Shown here: piece after piece, positions 25,267 through 34,340 of the stretch
How the letters are laid out: each line of letters begins with the position of its first letter
Position numbering within the stretch: the first letter of the stretch is position 1
From: Candidatus Sysuiplasma acidicola
GTDB taxonomy: Archaea; Thermoplasmatota; Thermoplasmata; Sysuiplasmatales; Sysuiplasmataceae
Length of the DNA: 49,937 nucleotides
Assembly: GCA_019721035.1 (NCBI GenBank)
Contig: JAHEAA010000016.1
Location: forward strand, 1 to 49,937
Direction of reading: 5' to 3'
Made by a program: the position numbers and the translations under genes
Notes under the pieces: generated by a model
The model's input: only the letters and a program-made list of their open reading frames with translations
Databases searched by the model: none
Told to the model about the DNA's origin: nothing

Positions 25267-26457
25267 TCAGACCCGTTCGAACACCATCGCGTAGCCCTGT
25301 CCTCCTCCGACACATAGCGCGGCAACCCCCGTTTCGCCCGCTCTGCCCCTCAGCATCCTTGTAAGCGTTCCGGCGATCCGTCCACCTGAAGCTCCGAGAG
25401 GATGACCGATTGCAATTGCGCCGCCCCTGCGATTGACACGATTCTGGTCGATACCCAGTTCCCTGATTGCGTTTATGACTACAACCGCGAATGCTTCGTT
25501 GATCTCCCAGATGTCAACGTCAGATGCGTCCATCTCTGCCCTGGACAGTGCCTTCCTTATGGCTGGAACGACCATTGCACCCATCAGTGAAGGATCGCCG
25601 GACGCCCACCCCATCGATGAAATTTTTGCAAGCGGCTCAAGGCCATATTCACTCAATTTTTTTCCGGACATCAGTGCAACGAGCGTCGCGCCGGCATTCA
25701 GGGGAGACGAATTGCCGGCAGTTATGAGTCCATCATTTACAAATGCAGGCAGAAGAGACGACAGCTTCTCCATCGTCGCGTCTGGCCGTATGCTCTGATC
25801 TGTCTCCACAGTCAAAGGCCCACTATCGGTGGCTACGGTGATCGGCAGTATCTCGTCGCGCAGGTAGCCCTCTTCGACCGCCGAAGCAGCTAGTCTGTGA
25901 CTCCTGAGCGCATATTCGTCCATCTCAGCGCGCGAAATGCCACGCTGTTTTGCGAGGTTCTCGGCTGTGAGCCCCATATTGTAGCCGATGTCCATGCGGT
26001 ATGAAGCATACCGTTCATCCGAAAGCAGAGGCTCGCAGAGTCTGTTGGAGAGCCTCGGTATGTGCGTCATGTGCTCCATTCCGCCGGCCAGAACGATGTC
26101 CGCATTCCCGGTCATTATTTCCATCGCACCTATCGACAGGGCATTGAGAGAGGATGAGCATGCGCGGTCAAGAACCATGGAAGGGACTTCCACAGGCATG
26201 TTTGCAAGAAAAACGGGATGTCTTCCACCGAACGTCCAGTTTTCATCCCTCTGATAAGCGCAGCCAATCACAACGTCGCCAATCTCGCCAGGCCTGATCG
26301 CCGTTTCGGCAACCGCGTCACGTATGAGCAGAGAGAGCGCATAATCCATCCTGATTGAGTTGAACACGTCCCTTTGCGGTTCAGACGGTCTCGAACGGCT
26401 GAAAGCAGTTCGTTTGTAGTGCACGACGTAGACATCCCTGTCATTCACCTGATTCAC
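25267..26457 (-). CDS. Acetyl-CoA acetyltransferase (thiolase)
   Basis: A 396-residue degradative/biosynthetic-type thiolase that joins or cleaves acyl-CoA units. The nucleophile is C100 in LDRACSSSLNAL; the other catalytic residues are His in GHPLGASGG and Cys in ALCVGGGQG. It has full family length, unlike the short archaeal thiolases tied to HMG-CoA synthase. The start is GTG at 26457, because GGGAGGA stands 5 bases upstream; the frame open to 26493 lacks such a site. It overlaps the DNA methyltransferase by 17 bases and is translated from the same mRNA. Confidence 0.92.
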   Translation of the reverse strand: MNQVNDRDVYVVHYKRTAFSRSRPSEPQRDVFNSIRMDYALSLLIRDAVAETAIRPGEIGDVVIGCAYQRDENWTFGGRHPVFLANMPVEVPSMVLDRACSSSLNALSIGAMEIMTGNADIVLAGGMEHMTHIPRLSNRLCEPLLSDERYASYRMDIGYNMGLTAENLAKQRGISRAEMDEYALRSHRLAASAVEEGYLRDEILPITVATDSGPLTVETDQSIRPDATMEKLSSLLPAFVNDGLITAGNSSPLNAGATLVALMSGKKLSEYGLEPLAKISSMGWASGDPSLMGAMVVPAIRKALSRAEMDASDVDIWEINEAFAVVVINAIRELGIDQNRVNRRGGAIAIGHPLGASGGRIAGTLTRMLRGRAGETGVAALCVGGGQGYAMVFERV

Positions 26458-27619
26458 AATATTCCTCCCGATAGATGCGCCTGCACTCGTCAAGCGGCAC
26501 TATTTTTCCCCTGAGTTTAAGCGTCCAGAAGTCCCATCCGTTTGCCCTTTCCCTTCCACATGCGCGCCCGGCAATCTCGTGTATGCTGCCGCGGACAGAG
26601 CCCATGGTGACGCTTCCGTCGGCGTTAACGCTTGCACTGAATGCACCGTCTGCTGACTTCAGCGCGGTGCCGGCGTGCAATATGCCATGCTCCAGCAGCG
26701 TGCCCATCGAGACACGCGTTTCCGCTCTTCGTGCAGGAAAGAGCTTAAACGGATCTTCGGATGAAAGCTGCGGTTTCTCAGCACTGAGATAGTTCCCAAT
26801 CCTTGAGACGGAAGCGGCCACGTAACGTTCATCTCTCTCAATGCCAATCCACCTTCTGCGGAGCATTTCCGCCGCCAGACCAGTGGTTCCGGTGCCAAGA
26901 AAAGGATCGAGGACAGTGTCGCCGGGCTTTGTGGACGAAAGTATGACTCTGTAGAGAAGGGACAGCGGCTTCTGCGTTGAATGAACCTTCAGGCCACCAT
27001 TCCTGATGCGCTCAGTACCTCCGCATATGGGGAGGAGCCAGTCGCTTCGCATCTGCTTGCCGTCGTTGAGCATTTTCATGTCCCAGTAATTGAACTGTTC
27101 GCGGGCTGAATCCTTCGATCGGCGCGCCCGGATGAGCGTCTCATGTGCGTTCGTGAAGCGTCTTCCCCTGAAGTTTGGCATCGGGTTTGTCTTCAACCAG
27201 ATGATGTCGTTTAGAATCCAGAACCCCAAATCCTGCATTATTTTGCCAATCCTGAATATATTGTGATAAGTTCCTATGACCCACATCGTTCCGTCAGCCT
27301 TCAGAATACGTCTGCATTCGGTGAGCCAGCTGGTTGTGAATGCATCGTACTCCTCAAATGAGGAAAAACTGTCCCATGCGTCATCCACGCCCGACACTTT
27401 GCTGTCATCCGGCCTTCTCAGTTCATCGCTCAACTGAAGGAAATATGGAGGATCGGCAAAGATGACGTCCACGCTGCCGTCCTCAATGTGCCTCATGGCC
27501 TCCACCGTATCCCCGCATACAATCGTACCGAGCGGAGAAGGATTGAAAATGTCGCCCTTGTGGCCGTCAGCCTTAAGGCGCCTTTTGTTTGACTCCATAA
27601 CCGGGGGAATGAATTTCAT
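26441..27619 (-). CDS. CcrM-type DNA adenine methyltransferase
   Basis: A 392-residue beta-class DNA methyltransferase. The catalytic motif DPPY is at residues 56-59 and the SAM motif DPFLGTG at 238-244. Long blocks match CcrM of alphaproteobacteria, including VIGTYHNIFRIG, LGFWILNDIIW, NPMPNF and MRSDW. Residues about 295-385 form the C-terminal DNA-binding domain of CcrM (GSIHEIAG, ANGWDFW). These enzymes methylate adenine in GANTC. No restriction endonuclease is beside it, so it looks like an orphan or regulatory enzyme. An ATG at 27598 may be the true start, given the TATA box at 27628. Confidence 0.9.
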   Translation of the reverse strand: MKFIPPVMESNKRRLKADGHKGDIFNPSPLGTIVCGDTVEAMRHIEDGSVDVIFADPPYFLQLSDELRRPDDSKVSGVDDAWDSFSSFEEYDAFTTSWLTECRRILKADGTMWVIGTYHNIFRIGKIMQDLGFWILNDIIWLKTNPMPNFRGRRFTNAHETLIRARRSKDSAREQFNYWDMKMLNDGKQMRSDWLLPICGGTERIRNGGLKVHSTQKPLSLLYRVILSSTKPGDTVLDPFLGTGTTGLAAEMLRRRWIGIERDERYVAASVSRIGNYLSAEKPQLSSEDPFKLFPARRAETRVSMGTLLEHGILHAGTALKSADGAFSASVNADGSVTMGSVRGSIHEIAGRACGRERANGWDFWTLKLRGKIVPLDECRRIYREEYCESGE

Positions 27620-27634: not shown

Positions 27635-27670
27635 TTGTGTGTGCATTCAAGGCAGAAAAAAGAGATAAAA

Positions 27671-29350
27671 ATGAAAGAAGACAACTGGTACGTCTATTCA
27701 CTCATCTCACTTTTCTTTGTTGCACTCATGCTTCGCCTGATCATGCCGCTGCAGTTCAGCGTATGGGGACCGGATACCGGGGAAAACTACTACATAGTGC
27801 ATTATTTCGCAGCTAACGGCAACATGCCGCAACCATACTATGGTTATGGTCGGACCTATACCGAATTCCCTGGTGTATACGAGCTCCTGGGAGCCCTGTC
27901 TGCGATTTCAGGCGTCTCGGCAGCAACGATTACCGAGCTTGCAATGCCATTCATAACGTCGGTGCTTGTATTCCCCGTCGCCTCGATTGCGAGGAGGCTG
28001 AGCGGAAACAGGCAGATTGCTCTTGCCTCTTCCCTTTTCTATTCAGCATCTGTAATAATCGTCGGCCACACATCCATAATCTCTTCTGACACAATGGGAG
28101 AAGTCCTGCTCATATTCTTTCTCTACTTCTATACCACGATGCACGAAAGCGTATTCGGTTACGCGGGCATGCTGCTGTGCATGACAGCCATGGTACCGAC
28201 GTATCACCTGGGCATGGTTTTCACGCTTGGTTTCCTGTACATCGCGCTCCTGTGCTATTCGTTTTTCAGGAGGAGCTCTATACGCGAAGTGAAATTACTG
28301 GCGATCACCCTTGCAGCAGGCATAACTGTGACGTTGACTTACTGGTTTGCCCTTGCTCCTAAATTCCTGTCTATGTTCATCCTGGGAAAAATTGATGCGC
28401 CTGCAGTCGTCATCGCACCGTATCTCCTCATTGCCGCAATATTGGTGGCTGGCAGGTATTCACCCTGGCAGGGACTGGTTGTCAGGGGAAGGACTGGAGC
28501 GCGGAGCGCAAAGTTCTACGTGCTTACGGCAGTACTCATCTCGCTTACAGGCGCTTCCATTGTTGCCATCTATGGTCTGCCCTCCATACCTGTCGAACCT
28601 GGCGCAGACGTCCTGTTGTTCGTCCCCACGCTGGCACTTTCGCTGATTGGAGGCGCCTTATACGTGCGTTTTTCGCTGATGAGATTCGAAAACGCAATAT
28701 TCGGCGCATTTGCTACCCTGATCGCATTGATCATAATTGCAGGCATGATTACTGGCGCGGCTTACCTCGTTCCATTGAGAGTGATCGAATACCTCTCGCT
28801 CATCCTGGCTTTTTTTGCCGGTTTCGGACTGGTGACTGCAATGAGTCTGTTCTTCCGGCCCGCCAGAAGGACTACTGTCTCCGTCACCATAGCATTCATC
28901 TTGATTCTTGCAGGCATGTCCGCCACTTTTTTCAACACTTCACTCTCCGTTCCATCGAAGATCGGCGCCACTCCTCCGGCGGATCTGGATGCAGCAAACT
29001 GGATTAGGTGGAACACGCAGACCAACGCCACGTTCGCAGGTGATCACAGGGTGAGCTCCATAGTCTTCGGATATGGGGACAGGAATGCCACGTGGGAGTT
29101 CGGCGGCGCGACGATTTTCGGCTCAAACACAATCGGCCAGCTGTTGAACAATCTCAACTCATCGCAGACACCGTCGGGGCTGAAACATGTGGATTACGTG
29201 ATGGTAGATGGCGAGATGATTGCTGCGGCGAACTTCTACCCCAACCAGCCTGATTATCCGTTGAATCCTGTAATGTTATCGATGCTCAAAACAGATAATT
29301 TCCTCGAGCTGTACACGAATGGTTACGCCACGGTGTACGCCTACGTCTGA
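27671..29350 (+). CDS. Multi-pass membrane protein, probable GT-C glycosyltransferase
   Basis: A 559-residue integral membrane protein with about 12-13 hydrophobic segments and a C-terminal outer domain of about 120 residues. The first loop holds GPDTGENYY, an acidic motif in the position used by GT-C glycosyltransferases such as oligosaccharyltransferase subunits, and the C-terminal domain has several N-glycosylation sites. That makes a role in surface glycan assembly plausible but not proven. The ATG at 27671 follows a purine-rich leader; the frame is open from 27635. It is divergent from the CcrM-type gene. Confidence 0.65.
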   Translation: MKEDNWYVYSLISLFFVALMLRLIMPLQFSVWGPDTGENYYIVHYFAANGNMPQPYYGYGRTYTEFPGVYELLGALSAISGVSAATITELAMPFITSVLVFPVASIARRLSGNRQIALASSLFYSASVIIVGHTSIISSDTMGEVLLIFFLYFYTTMHESVFGYAGMLLCMTAMVPTYHLGMVFTLGFLYIALLCYSFFRRSSIREVKLLAITLAAGITVTLTYWFALAPKFLSMFILGKIDAPAVVIAPYLLIAAILVAGRYSPWQGLVVRGRTGARSAKFYVLTAVLISLTGASIVAIYGLPSIPVEPGADVLLFVPTLALSLIGGALYVRFSLMRFENAIFGAFATLIALIIIAGMITGAAYLVPLRVIEYLSLILAFFAGFGLVTAMSLFFRPARRTTVSVTIAFILILAGMSATFFNTSLSVPSKIGATPPADLDAANWIRWNTQTNATFAGDHRVSSIVFGYGDRNATWEFGGATIFGSNTIGQLLNNLNSSQTPSGLKHVDYVMVDGEMIAAANFYPNQPDYPLNPVMLSMLKTDNFLELYTNGYATVYAYV

Positions 29351-29367: not shown

Positions 29368-31344
29368 TCAGCTGTACTTGACCCTCAGGTCGCGAAGAAT
29401 ATCGGCTACATCCTCGCACCTGTCCGTAACCGACTCCATGTTGTCGTAGATTTCCTTGAGCTTTACGATTTCGATCGCGTTGTCGCCCTTGAAGAGTTCC
29501 TCGAGCGACGTGCGTAGTATGGTGTCGGCATCATTCTCATACTTATTTATTTCAACGCAGCTCTTCTCAAGCCTGTCGAAACGTCTCGAATAGATGTCAT
29601 TTATATTTTCTATTCCTTCAGAAACCTCACGCACGGACAGCAGGATGGTATGCGAAAATTCTTTCATTGGAACTGTAGGTGAATTCACCCCGTACATGTG
29701 AAATCTCGCAACTGTTGCCTCCATATAGTCCATTATGTCGTCCAGCGCCTGGGCCAGTGACACTATCTCGGTCCTCTCAATCGGTGCAATGAGCTTGGTA
29801 TTGAGCCTGACAAAGATGCGATGGACGATCTCGTCGCAGTCATGCTCTATGCTCTTGATCCTCTTTGCAAATTCAATGGTATCTCCCCAGCTGCTGATGA
29901 ATTTCTCCAGTTCCCCTGCTGCAACGACAATCTGTTCTGTCAACGCATAAATCAAATCGGAGAATTCAGAATAGGTCTTCAGCAGCTTTTCCTCACCGCT
30001 GATTTCCTCGAGCCGCCTCTCCTGTCCCTCGGGTATGAACAGTGCAGTCACCGCTACGCCCATGACAGACATCACGGCCAGCCAGGAGAAAATGCCACTG
30101 AGATGTATGTAACTTAGCATGAACGGAAAGAGAAAGGCGCTCATAGCTGCACCGGATTTTCCGGCAGATGCAGCTATGCCGTGCCCGGTAGATCGAATCT
30201 GCGTGGGGAACACCTCAACCGGGACTACGAACGTTGTCGTGTTCGGACCCATATTTATGAAAAAGAAGGTGGAACCGAAAACTATGAGCAATGCTGTCAC
30301 ATTAGCCACTATCGCAGGAATCAGGGCAATGGACGCATACGCTATGGCCATAAAGATGAAACCTAGCATCTGCAGTTTCCTTCTTCCGATGTTATCTATA
30401 AGATAGACGGCAGCCCAGTAACCAGGAAAAGCGGAGAACAGGAAGATGGCTGCAGTGATCTCGGTGGATGTGAGTATAGAGACCGAGCTGACATCGTGCA
30501 CGATCGTGTTTGTAAATATGCCGGTGCCGTAGAATGCGACATCCAGCGCAAACCAACATAGAGATGTGCCGAGGATCATCGGCGCATACATGGAAAGTAT
30601 TTGTCTCTTGGGTATCTTGATCGTCTGTCTCCTCGCATCCCTGTCGTCGATGGTGCCAGCAAGAGGTATTCCGTAGGAGTCACTTCCCGTTTTCTTTCCG
30701 GAAGATGCAACGTATCTGGGCGTTTCGCTCATCCTGCTCCTGTTATACAGAACTGCCAGTGCGGGAATAGCACCCATTGCAAGGGGCAGTCTCCAGGAAA
30801 GCGACAGTGGCGCATGCAACAGCAGAGTAACCAGGGTGATCAGCGCGCCCGTCAGTTGCCCGAATCCCTGCATTGCAAACACTGATGCAACGAGTTTTCC
30901 CCTGTCCTTCCTGTTCGAGAATTCGGACATGATGGTAGCACTGATAGGATAATCAGCACCTATGCCGACACCGAGCAGGAGACGCCACAGTATGAGCTGA
31001 ACAGGGTCGGCAGAAGTCGCGGAACCGAGAGCGGCGACTATGAGGAGAACGAGGTCGAACGTGTATACTGTCTTCCTGCCGAACCGATCGGCAATGGGGC
31101 CGAAAATGAGCGGGCCAAGAATTGCGCCAAACAACGCGGAGCTGGAGATCAGCGCATAATAGAGCGCTTTGTCTGAAATGCCGAAGTATACGCCTATTAT
31201 GGGCAAAATTGCACCTATGACAAAAAGGTCGTATGCGTCAGTAAAGAATCCCATACCCGAAATCAGTAGCGTTTTGATGTGATATTTGCTGATGCTGGCT
31301 TCGTCAAGCGGCGCGAACAGCCCCGGTGTCTGGGATTGACTCAA
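29368..31344 (-). CDS. Phosphate/H+ symporter (MFS) fused to a DUF47 PhoU-like domain
   Basis: A 658-residue fusion. Residues about 20-440 are a 12-segment major facilitator of the PHO84 phosphate symporter type, shown by GFFTDAYDLF at 32-41 and the GPIADRFGRK loop at 82-91. Residues about 450-658 are a PhoU-like helical bundle of the DUF47 type with acidic metal-binding repeats EHDCDE (500-505), ALDDIMDYME (533-542), ENDAD (603-607) and DRCEDV (641-646). DUF47 proteins are usually separate partners of Pit phosphate transporters. The start is a TTG at 31344. It faces an AbrB-PhoU regulator. Confidence 0.88.
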   Translation of the reverse strand: MSQSQTPGLFAPLDEASISKYHIKTLLISGMGFFTDAYDLFVIGAILPIIGVYFGISDKALYYALISSSALFGAILGPLIFGPIADRFGRKTVYTFDLVLLIVAALGSATSADPVQLILWRLLLGVGIGADYPISATIMSEFSNRKDRGKLVASVFAMQGFGQLTGALITLVTLLLHAPLSLSWRLPLAMGAIPALAVLYNRSRMSETPRYVASSGKKTGSDSYGIPLAGTIDDRDARRQTIKIPKRQILSMYAPMILGTSLCWFALDVAFYGTGIFTNTIVHDVSSVSILTSTEITAAIFLFSAFPGYWAAVYLIDNIGRRKLQMLGFIFMAIAYASIALIPAIVANVTALLIVFGSTFFFINMGPNTTTFVVPVEVFPTQIRSTGHGIAASAGKSGAAMSAFLFPFMLSYIHLSGIFSWLAVMSVMGVAVTALFIPEGQERRLEEISGEEKLLKTYSEFSDLIYALTEQIVVAAGELEKFISSWGDTIEFAKRIKSIEHDCDEIVHRIFVRLNTKLIAPIERTEIVSLAQALDDIMDYMEATVARFHMYGVNSPTVPMKEFSHTILLSVREVSEGIENINDIYSRRFDRLEKSCVEINKYENDADTILRTSLEELFKGDNAIEIVKLKEIYDNMESVTDRCEDVADILRDLRVKYS

Positions 31345-31530
31345 TTCGAACAGTGCTCCAGGAATTTGTCTGAACGCACGACAGCCACTGATGCCGATAT
31401 GCCAAGCGCGCCGGCTGTGTGCCTTCCCGTCGACCTTCCCGTTGATTGAGATTTAAAGTGAATTTCAATATGGTGTATATAGACTAAATAGATGTACATT
31501 AAGATATATATTGCAGTGCGTACCTACTGA
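31345..31530. promoter_or_regulatory. Divergent promoter region of the phosphate genes
   Basis: This 186-base AT-rich spacer holds a plus-strand TATA box GATATATA at 31503-31510, about 25 bases before the GTG of the PhoU-type regulator, and an exact ATGTACAT palindrome at 31492-31499 beside it. Minus-strand TATA-like sequences (CTATATAC, TTTAAAT) lie at about 31450-31483, giving a leader of 80 bases or more for the transporter. The arrangement suggests shared control by the encoded regulator (inference). Confidence 0.45.
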
Positions 31531-32541
31531 GTGGCTGTCAACATGGAAACAAGAAAAGTGCAGTTTACAGGCAACTCCACATTCACAATCTCGCTGCCCA
31601 AGGACTGGGCAAAGAGCATGGGCATAAAGGCGGGTGACCTTCTGGTCCTGACGAGAGCGGATAACGGCACGCTGACAGTGAGTCCATCCCTGCCATCCGG
31701 GAGAATCGCCAGAACAAAGGAATTCCTGATTACCAAGGAAAGTCCGGTACATCTGGAAAGGATGCTGATCGGCGCATACGTGATGGGTTTTGATACTATT
31801 ACGGTGAGAGCAAAGGAAAGAATAGACAATGCTATGAAGGAAAAGATCAGGCATTTTACAAGATCCGTCACGGGTGTTGAAATTGTGGAGGAGAGTATGA
31901 ACGCCGTAGTCATAAAGGATCTCAGTGACCCCCTCGAGCTATCCCAGGAAAAAGGAGTGAGGAGACTGCACCTTATCGTGAAATCAATGCAGGAGGATTC
32001 TATAGAGTCTCTGGCAAGAGGCGATTCCTCCTTCGCTATCGACGTGATAAACAGGGATTACGATGCAGACAGAATCTACTGGATAATCATGAAAGAGCAT
32101 AACATGATGGTGAAGGACATGAGCCTCGCCGAAAAGCTCAAAATAACCATAGATGAGAGCAATGCATACTTCCAGGTAGCGAGATATCTGGAGCGCATAG
32201 GCGATCATGCGGTTCAGATAGCAAGATCCGTGACATCCATCGGCAGCTATGCGATTGATGAAAAACTGCTGGCCCAGTTCCGGAATGTGCATGCGCTGGC
32301 AATGAAGATGCTCGACGGTGCAATGAGCGCGTTCTTCAGAAGGAATGTGGAAGAGGCCAATAACGTCATAGATCAGAGGGAAAAACTCAAGACTGCGCTC
32401 GGCGAACTTTCCAGGAAAATCCAGAATCTGAAGGGCGAGGCGGCCATACAGCTTGCACTCATAGAGGAATCGGTGAGGAGGACGGCTTACTACGCCACTG
32501 ACATCTGCGAAGTCTCCATAAACTACTGCATGCTCCCCTGA
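31531..32541 (+). CDS. AbrB-PhoU phosphate uptake regulator
   Basis: This 336-residue protein has an N-terminal SpoVT-AbrB DNA-binding domain (about residues 5-50, with FTISLPKDWAKSMGIKAGD) and a PhoU domain in the C-terminal two thirds, with the acidic helical repeats YDADRIYW and YLERIGDHAVQIA. This combination is known in archaea and is taken to regulate phosphate uptake. GTG 31531 lies at the expected leaderless start; ATG 31543 is the alternative. It is divergent from the transporter-DUF47 fusion, so both gene products may act in one phosphate-sensing loop. Confidence 0.9.
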   Translation: MAVNMETRKVQFTGNSTFTISLPKDWAKSMGIKAGDLLVLTRADNGTLTVSPSLPSGRIARTKEFLITKESPVHLERMLIGAYVMGFDTITVRAKERIDNAMKEKIRHFTRSVTGVEIVEESMNAVVIKDLSDPLELSQEKGVRRLHLIVKSMQEDSIESLARGDSSFAIDVINRDYDADRIYWIIMKEHNMMVKDMSLAEKLKITIDESNAYFQVARYLERIGDHAVQIARSVTSIGSYAIDEKLLAQFRNVHALAMKMLDGAMSAFFRRNVEEANNVIDQREKLKTALGELSRKIQNLKGEAAIQLALIEESVRRTAYYATDICEVSINYCMLP

Positions 32542-32641: not shown

Positions 32642-33340
32642 ATGGAAAAAACAGTCAACACGGAGCAGGCAGAAACAGCTTCAGGAGAGGCACATGATGG
32701 TGCTGCCGGTCACTTTCCACTGATGATATCGCTGAGAGATAAAGACATAGTGATTGTAGGCGGCGGGGAGGTTGCTTACCACAAGGCGTCATTGCTGCGC
32801 CCCTATGCCCGATCAATAACGGTGCTGAGCGAGGAGTTCTCAGAAAAATTCAACAATCTGGATGTGAAGAAGATTGTTGCGTCAGGCCGGGACATAAAAA
32901 CGCTGATGGGAAAACCGTTCCTGCTGATTTGTGCTACAGACGACCATGAGCTGAACAACGACCTGATGATGCACTGCCGCAGGAACGGCATACTGTGCAA
33001 CAATGTTGACGTGCTTGAATCCGACGTATATTTCGGTTCTATGATAAAGAGCGGCCCCCTGACCATTTCGATATCAACCAACGGCATGTCTCCTACAATG
33101 GCGAGGTTCACAAGGGAAACACTGACCGAGGCGCTAGACAGGAGTTTCTGGGAGATGCTCGGCATCCAGACTGAACTGCGGTCGAAGCTGAGGCATTCCA
33201 TACCTGAAATGAGGAGGAGAAAGGAAGTGCTTGATTCGATTGTCTACGATCCTGATATATGGGCGTTGCTTGAAGGGGGAAAAAGGAAGGAGGCCATGGA
33301 ACTCGCTGTCAGGAAGGTGAATGGCGGCAATGAAAGCTGA
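32642..33340 (+). CDS. Precorrin-2 dehydrogenase / siroheme synthase N-terminal type
   Basis: A 232-residue NAD-dependent enzyme of the Met8/SirC type that oxidises precorrin-2 to sirohydrochlorin and may insert iron. The Rossmann loop is VIVGGGEVA (about 37-45); D123 in NNVDV is at the catalytic aspartate position, and STNGMSPTMAR is the conserved tetrapyrrole-binding block. The first 22 residues are an extra acidic lead. A TATA box near 32608-32618 gives a leaderless ATG. It heads a three-gene haem operon, overlapping or abutting the AhbA-AhbB gene. Confidence 0.92.
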   Translation: MEKTVNTEQAETASGEAHDGAAGHFPLMISLRDKDIVIVGGGEVAYHKASLLRPYARSITVLSEEFSEKFNNLDVKKIVASGRDIKTLMGKPFLLICATDDHELNNDLMMHCRRNGILCNNVDVLESDVYFGSMIKSGPLTISISTNGMSPTMARFTRETLTEALDRSFWEMLGIQTELRSKLRHSIPEMRRRKEVLDSIVYDPDIWALLEGGKRKEAMELAVRKVNGGNES

Positions 33341-33350
33341 GGAGGACGTG

Positions 33351-34340
33351 GTGAACTCGGAACATGACGTGCTCATTGACGGAACAGACAGGAGGCTTCT
33401 GAACGAGATACAGTGGGAGTTCCCTCTTGTGCGGAGACCGTATCTCGCACTTGGCAGGAAGCTCGGGCTGAGCGAGGAGGTTTTGATGCAGCGCATAGAA
33501 CATCTTCGTGAGATCGGAGTAATAAGACAGATTAATGCGATTTACGACACAAGGAGGCTCGGATATTCAAGCACGCTTGTCTCTTTCTCGGTGGAAGAGG
33601 ACAGGATCGACGATGTAGCCGAAAAGATAAACGGGCATCCCGGTGTGAGTCACAATTACAGACGTGAAGGAGAATTCAACCTCTGGTTCACACTTGCGAC
33701 ACCTCCCGGAACCGATGTAGGAAGCGAGGCCGCAAGACTTGCAGCGGAAAATGGGGTTGTGAGGTGGCATCTCCTCCCAGCACTGAAACTTTACAAAATA
33801 GGTGTTAGACTCAATATGACGGGGGAGCACGTCGAAGTGCCAAAAGAGAAGAGAAAATGGGACACCCCGTTCACTGTCACCGAGGAGGACAGGAAATTCA
33901 TCCGGGCGACGCAGAAAGATCTTTCCATCTCTGCAGAACCGTTCGAATCGATGGCGGCAGAAGCCGGGATGAGCGTGGAGGAGATGTTCGATCGTTTCCG
34001 CAGCTACCATGACCTGGGAGTGATGAGGAGATTCGCGGCCATACTCAGGCACCAGAAGGCCGGCTTTGTGGCGAACGGCATGGTATGCTGGAAGGCAGAC
34101 GAAACTGTATCGCAAAAGGTGGCTGAGGCGGCGGTGGAATATAGCGAGGTGAGTCACTGCTATATGCGACCGACATACGGAGACTGGCCATACAGCACAT
34201 ATACAATGATACACGGCAGGGAGAAGAAAGAGTGCGAAAGAATAGCTGCGGAAATTTCCGCTAAGACAGGCATTACGGATTATGTTGTGCTTTACAGCAC
34301 CAGAGAGTACAAGAAAAAGAGAGTCGAATACTTCGTCTGA
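33351..34340 (+). CDS. ahbAB: Siroheme decarboxylase, AhbA-AhbB fusion
   Basis: A single chain of about 329 residues containing two Lrp/AsnC-like siroheme decarboxylase halves. The first half has VIRQINAIYDTRRLGY and SHNYRREGEFNLWFTLA, as in AhbA; the second has VMRRFAAILRHQKAGF and SHCYMRP then PYSTYTMIHG, as in AhbB. In the siroheme-dependent haem route AhbA and AhbB form a heterodimer that removes two acetate carboxyls to give didecarboxysiroheme. GTG 33351, 5 bases after GGAGG, was chosen; ATG 33321 or 33330 inside the upstream gene are alternatives. Confidence 0.92.
   Translation: MNSEHDVLIDGTDRRLLNEIQWEFPLVRRPYLALGRKLGLSEEVLMQRIEHLREIGVIRQINAIYDTRRLGYSSTLVSFSVEEDRIDDVAEKINGHPGVSHNYRREGEFNLWFTLATPPGTDVGSEAARLAAENGVVRWHLLPALKLYKIGVRLNMTGEHVEVPKEKRKWDTPFTVTEEDRKFIRATQKDLSISAEPFESMAAEAGMSVEEMFDRFRSYHDLGVMRRFAAILRHQKAGFVANGMVCWKADETVSQKVAEAAVEYSEVSHCYMRPTYGDWPYSTYTMIHGREKKECERIAAEISAKTGITDYVVLYSTREYKKKRVEYFV

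Follow-up and report, generated by a model that had tools for sequence, protein, structure and literature searches.

The gene at 29368-31344 of the window (that is, the whole stretch of DNA that was analysed, 49,937 nucleotides of contig JAHEAA010000016.1 from the uncultured archaeon Candidatus Sysuiplasma acidicola) encodes one protein in which a complete DUF47 bundle is joined by a short linker to a PHS-type symporter of the major facilitator superfamily (MFS). The gene and the parts of its product lie as follows:

29368..31344, minus strand: MFS-DUF47 fusion gene, one continuous frame of 658 aa with a TTG start and GGAG upstream
29998..31305, minus strand: predicted PHS-type MFS phosphate:H+ symporter domain, residues about 14-449, recognised by Sugar_tr, TIGR00887, likeness to PiPT and PHT1;11, and Pi-site residues
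29965..30000, minus strand: linker of the fusion protein, residues 449-460, 12 aa
29395..29982, minus strand: DUF47 (PhoU_div/PitR) helical bundle with four acidic clusters, recognised by Pfam and by conserved residues

In Pfam, Sugar_tr matches residues 31-449 (E 3e-55) and PhoU_div/DUF47 (PF01865) matches residues 455-650 (E 1.3e-21, profile positions 7-208 of 214), the latter scoring 77.3 bits over a gathering cut-off of 24.4, which places the domain in PF01865. The predicted structure of the fusion protein is confident almost throughout (mean pLDDT 93.7, pTM 0.88), and in the AF2 model a helix of residues 450-483 begins two residues past the helix of residues 444-447. The context of the start, TTGAGTCAATCCCAG, is also present in the homologue at L033, which is 89% identical. 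For comparison, 30 distinct fused proteins were assembled, consisting of the protein of the window and of frames read from the matches of a collection scan and from sampled genomes. The linker, taken from the end of the conserved carrier tail at S449 to F461, measures 12 aa in 26 of them and 6 aa in the other 4, and no length in between was found among the 30. An earlier note on this DNA had described a phosphate symporter covalently attached to a DUF47 domain with all four acidic repeats. Both parts were identified correctly, as judged by Pfam and by the nearest solved relatives in sequence, and the covalent fusion is borne out by the continuous frame and the 30 distinct fused homologues, over which the four repeats are present and almost invariant.

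On the regulator side, the best solved relative of residues 488-658 by sequence is 3l39, a 'Putative PhoU-like phosphate regulatory protein'. The acidic clusters of the DUF47 part are E500-D504-(H508), D535-D536-D539, E603-D607 and E637-D641-(E644)-D645; within them E500/D504, D535/D536/D539, E603/D607 and E637/D641 are invariant across the 30 homologues, and so is K630. The four clusters could be metal-binding, as the earlier note had it, and their acidic residues are putative ligands. The general topology of 12-helix MFS proteins would put the DUF47 part on the cytoplasmic side.

The carrier part is nearest by sequence, among solved structures, to plant PHT1;11 and fungal PiPT, and the best PDB folds for the predicted model are likewise PiPT structures and OsPHT1;11, that is, folds of the PHS family. 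TIGR00887, the NCBIfam Pho84 equivalog, was the best NCBIfam match, with 333.7 bits against a curated cut-off of 610.3, and a score so far under the cut-off makes this a PHS-like carrier and not a Pho84 equivalog by that test. The 'PHO84-type' of the earlier note therefore holds for a PHS-like symporter with Pi-site residues but not for the equivalog itself. All 11 of the PiPT Pi/H+ positions examined are retained in the window protein, at D36, D39, R121, D131, Y132, Q159, W264, D268, Y272, N368 and K396, which match in the same order D45, D48, R139, D149, Y150, Q177, W320, D324, Y328, N431 and K459 of PiPT. Y150, D324, Y328 and K459 are named in the titles of PDB entries, whereas D45, D48, R139, D149, Q177, W320 and N431 are residues which we take to be Pi/H+ positions. 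Over the 30 homologues the positions are invariant except for D149 (D or E), Q177 (W in 4) and K459 (R in 4). The roles of the equivalent Pho84 residues (D178/Y179/D358/K492) have been discussed (PMC5159500). Taken together, residues and predicted fold suggest that Pi would be the substrate of the fusion carrier.

The attachment of DUF47 to this carrier departs from its usual arrangement, a separate gene adjoining PiT. In a survey of 926 bacterial genomes, Vermilya and colleagues reported that 97.8% of those encoding PitR/DUF47 also encode PitA, the PitR and PitA genes being adjacent in all but one case, which agrees with the statement of the earlier note that DUF47 proteins normally partner Pit carriers; they defined three importer-regulator pairs (PhoU-Pst, PitR-Pit and NptA-PhoU domain) and concluded in 2026 that each clade of PhoU-type regulators keeps to one transporter family (PMC13170248). 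The usual arrangement is also found in the genome of the window, where a second DUF47 gene (C10:57927-58538) lies directly upstream of a PiT gene (C10:58625-59458), and this genome has an unfused PHS-type MFS paralogue on C5 as well. No PstB-level match was found in it, and PF02690 (Na_Pi_cotrans) was absent from the 16 genomes searched, this one included. Among the 16 genomes of family f9 that carry the fusion (drafts, most of them over 90% complete), 12 gave no PiT match; none of these 12 showed a DUF47 besides the fused one, and 11 keep a strong PstB-type match. DUF47 is thus left in these 12 genomes without an evident partner except the MFS domain. It appears that DUF47 has switched partners and has become part of the new one. 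The MFS-DUF47 fusion is a further pair outside the three-pair scheme, and it breaks the rule of one clade for one transporter family, with DUF47 on an MFS proton symporter and, in some lineages, no detectable Pit. Moreover, since regulator and carrier are one molecule and their stoichiometry is fixed, one could ask of the fusion directly whether DUF47 acts on the carrier, which is difficult to establish when the partners are separate.

We think it probable, although far from assured, that the protein is a proton-coupled Pi importer of the PHS branch with a PitR/DUF47 regulator of its own, attached at the C-terminus on the cytoplasmic side. In such a protein, Pi and H+ would enter via the MFS site, the short fixed linker would hold the DUF47 bundle near the inner face, and the bundle would read the cytosolic Pi (or metal-Pi) state and slow the carrier when Pi is plentiful, as is thought for the PhoU-type partners of other Pi importers; it may also report the Pi state to an AbrB/PhoU regulator, the product of the neighbouring gene. 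That DUF47 would sense a ligand, brake and signal is proposed here from the example of S. aureus. There, Pi homeostasis is under the control of both PitR and the PhoU domain at the C-terminus of NptA, each of which restrains phosphate signalling, and an NptA that lacks the PhoU domain continues to import Pi, with growth impaired when Pi is high (PMC13170248). By analogy with these two proteins, DUF47 probably brakes the carrier at high cytosolic Pi. Direct gating of uptake by a metal-phosphate sensor in the same molecule, which the earlier note had suggested, is possible. Against the reading as an importer with its own regulator we count the low TIGR00887 score, the DUF47-free paralogues, the changes in the fusions of families f26 and f31, and the absence of the regulator neighbour in some families. 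The unfused PHS paralogues of the same genome have no DUF47, so carriers of this kind do not depend on the domain.

The gene next door to the fusion gene encodes a candidate phosphate transcription regulator, as predicted from its domains, and an element in the intergenic region is a candidate operator for both genes:

31531..32541, plus strand: AbrB/MazE-like DNA-binding domain (Pfam MazE_antitoxin, residues 11-52) followed by two PhoU domains (Pfam PhoU)
31466..31491, divergent promoter: candidate shared operator, the window copy being degenerate (CTATTTAGT, 31483-31491 on the minus strand)

In family f1, to which the window belongs, the AbrB/PhoU gene is divergent to the fusion gene and shares its promoter in all loci examined, and in f9 it is convergent beside the fusion gene in 9 of 15 loci. 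In family f7, in which DUF47 is unfused, a homologue directly follows the DUF47 gene, and at L030, an f7 locus for which the carrier gene was read, it follows a PiT-DUF47 pair. No PhoU-type neighbour was seen beside the f17, f23, f26, f28 and f31 fusions examined. The element reads CTATATAGTN5TAGAC in the relatives, of which the window copy is a degenerate form, and copies lie at 31466-31491 of the window, at L034 4873, at L036 8709 and at G000:C5:79813-79831. Within 149 kb of f9 loci there are 8 copies of its palindrome, CTATATAG, all of which fall on the start of the AbrB/PhoU gene or a short way upstream of it, and 117 kb of f1 loci contain 6, all in the intergenic region that the two genes share. 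Some of the sequences in which the extended motif was counted had also served to define it, which makes the f1 counts circular in part; as support, the sites in f9 suffer less from this circularity. The extended motif has one match, allowing at most one mismatch, in the 2-Mb genome of the window, and this match is upstream of the unfused PHS paralogue. These positions suggest that the element is a phosphate operator of Thermoplasmata, a basal promoter element being the alternative candidate. It is conceivable, and we put it forward tentatively, that the fusion, the AbrB/PhoU regulator and CTATATAG make up a phosphate circuit of Thermoplasmata in which no two-component system is required. In that case the importer would be its own Pi sensor, and DUF47 would hand the signal on to a DNA-binding protein, via the PhoU domains of the latter, and that protein would control Pi symporter genes.

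The same neighbourhood bears on the alternative that survives best, although we consider it unlikely on balance, namely that DUF47 signals and does not gate. That is, it would bind or release the AbrB/PhoU protein depending on flux or on cytosolic Pi, and the importer itself would then control the transcription of phosphate genes. The divergent promoter in f1, the convergent neighbours in f9, the location of every CTATATAG site at the regulator gene or in the shared intergenic region, and the sole extended match ahead of a Pi symporter paralogue are all in line with such a role, and in S. aureus PitR and NptA-PhoU repress the PhoPR system (PMC13170248). However, the contact between the DUF47 fusion and the AbrB/PhoU protein is hypothetical, the neighbour was not seen beside the f17, f26, f28 and f31 fusions, and the palindrome may belong to the basal promoter and not be an operator.

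It seems rather improbable that the DUF47 bundle belongs constitutively to the carrier, serving folding, oligomerisation or stability with no sensing at all. The fixed short linker and the high confidence of the joint model would fit this, but the strict conservation of the acidic clusters is something that a scaffold would not need, and the unfused PHS carriers of the same genomes manage without DUF47.

We give still less credence to the idea that the carrier transports an organic acid, a sugar or another oxyanion, with DUF47 reporting on phosphate only indirectly. Substrate calls for MFS proteins are fallible, the score is below the TIGR00887 cut-off, and the fusions of f26 and f31 depart at two Pi-site positions; however, the window protein keeps 11 of 11 of the PiPT positions, and the nearest folds and sequences are those of Pi transporters. 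The fusions of f26 and f31 (L128, L129, L130 and L132) form a divergent subtype with the 6-aa linker and the changes Q159 to W and K396 to R, and three of its members have also lost H508. This subtype may differ in substrate or may be a second fusion, and its changes at Q159, K396 and H508 imply that substrate or control may vary among the fusions.

Full-length fused relatives were found by the collection scan in many metagenome bins, and in a sample of 390 genomes from the phylum the whole length of the fusion was matched in 26, which represent six families (16 genomes in f9, 4 in f31, 2 each in f1 and f26, and 1 each in f28 and f17). The fusion was also present in bins labelled TACK and Micrarchaeota (L043 and L047), labels which call for the usual caution. 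The other fused proteins are 31-89% identical to that of the window in the MFS part and 27-87% in DUF47. The domain pair, for which the earlier note had proposed a search in other genomes, therefore exists in at least six archaeal families, and what that note had named as contrary evidence was not seen: there is no frameshift, and the junction is covered by 7 distinct f1 sequences, all 7 of them fused, so that none of these close relatives has split genes. That a frameshift or misassembly unites two genes can be dismissed, since nothing in the window points to it and the fusion recurs in many independent assemblies, which rules out an artefact of this contig. DUF47 was found close to an unfused MFS gene only at L112, among about 70 loci with unfused MFS, and there the two parts are in different frames with unknown bases at the joint, probably a fusion that these bases obscure. 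In the f17 genomes checked, no adjoining unfused MFS and DUF47 genes were found. A 683-aa frame at L126 was considered as another DUF47 fusion and rejected, being an overlong open frame before an ordinary PiT-linked DUF47 gene.

As to origin, the DUF47 domains of the fused proteins group in a single clade apart from the unfused ones (98/90 support), in a tree whose unfused sample is biased to high scorers and which has several long branches. On the MFS tree four changes are required, and well-supported branches force at least two of them; the f26 and f31 members stand far out in it and are strongly separated. A single origin was therefore not taken as settled, and the fusion either arose once and then diverged or arose twice.

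Several other genes of the window may be mentioned. A DNA methylase (N6_N4_Mtase) with a C-terminal RAMA domain (26441-27619) is kept near the fusion gene in several f1 members, and a 571-aa membrane-like protein (27635-29350), which has no match in Pfam or NCBIfam, is syntenic in f1. Beyond the regulator gene, a siroheme synthase N-terminal domain gene (32642-33340) adjoins one gene (33321-34340) in which the AhbA and then the AhbB half of siroheme decarboxylase are fused (NCBIfam).

Among known systems, the PitR/DUF47-PitA pair of S. aureus and most PitR bacteria has the same domain family and presumably the same role of linking import to Pi status, but its DUF47 is a separate protein encoded beside PiT, whereas in the fusion DUF47 is a covalent part of an MFS:H+ symporter (PMC13170248). 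The best functional precedent is NptA of S. aureus, likewise a phosphate carrier with a C-terminal domain of the PhoU superfamily; its carrier is of the Na/Pi type (PF02690), whereas that of the fusion is MFS and falls outside PF02690, and its PhoU domain is short (residues 450-534 were removed in PMC13170248) compared with the full DUF47 bundle of the fusion. The Pi:H+ symporters Pho84, PiPT and PHT1 (TC 2.A.1.9) have fold, sequence and Pi/H+ residues as in the fusion but lack its DUF47 domain. To our knowledge, no PhoU-type domain occurs in these symporters. In the plant SPX-MFS carriers, the SPX domain is N-terminal and unrelated to DUF47. These carriers (PHT5/VPT), which sit in the vacuole membrane, are analogous to the fusion in design, a phosphate-status domain being fused to an MFS phosphate carrier (PMC4821872). 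A literature search that covered few subscription papers found no description of an MFS-DUF47 protein, and InterPro may list the architecture. The fusion unites two known families in a known design, that of a carrier with a phosphate-status domain.
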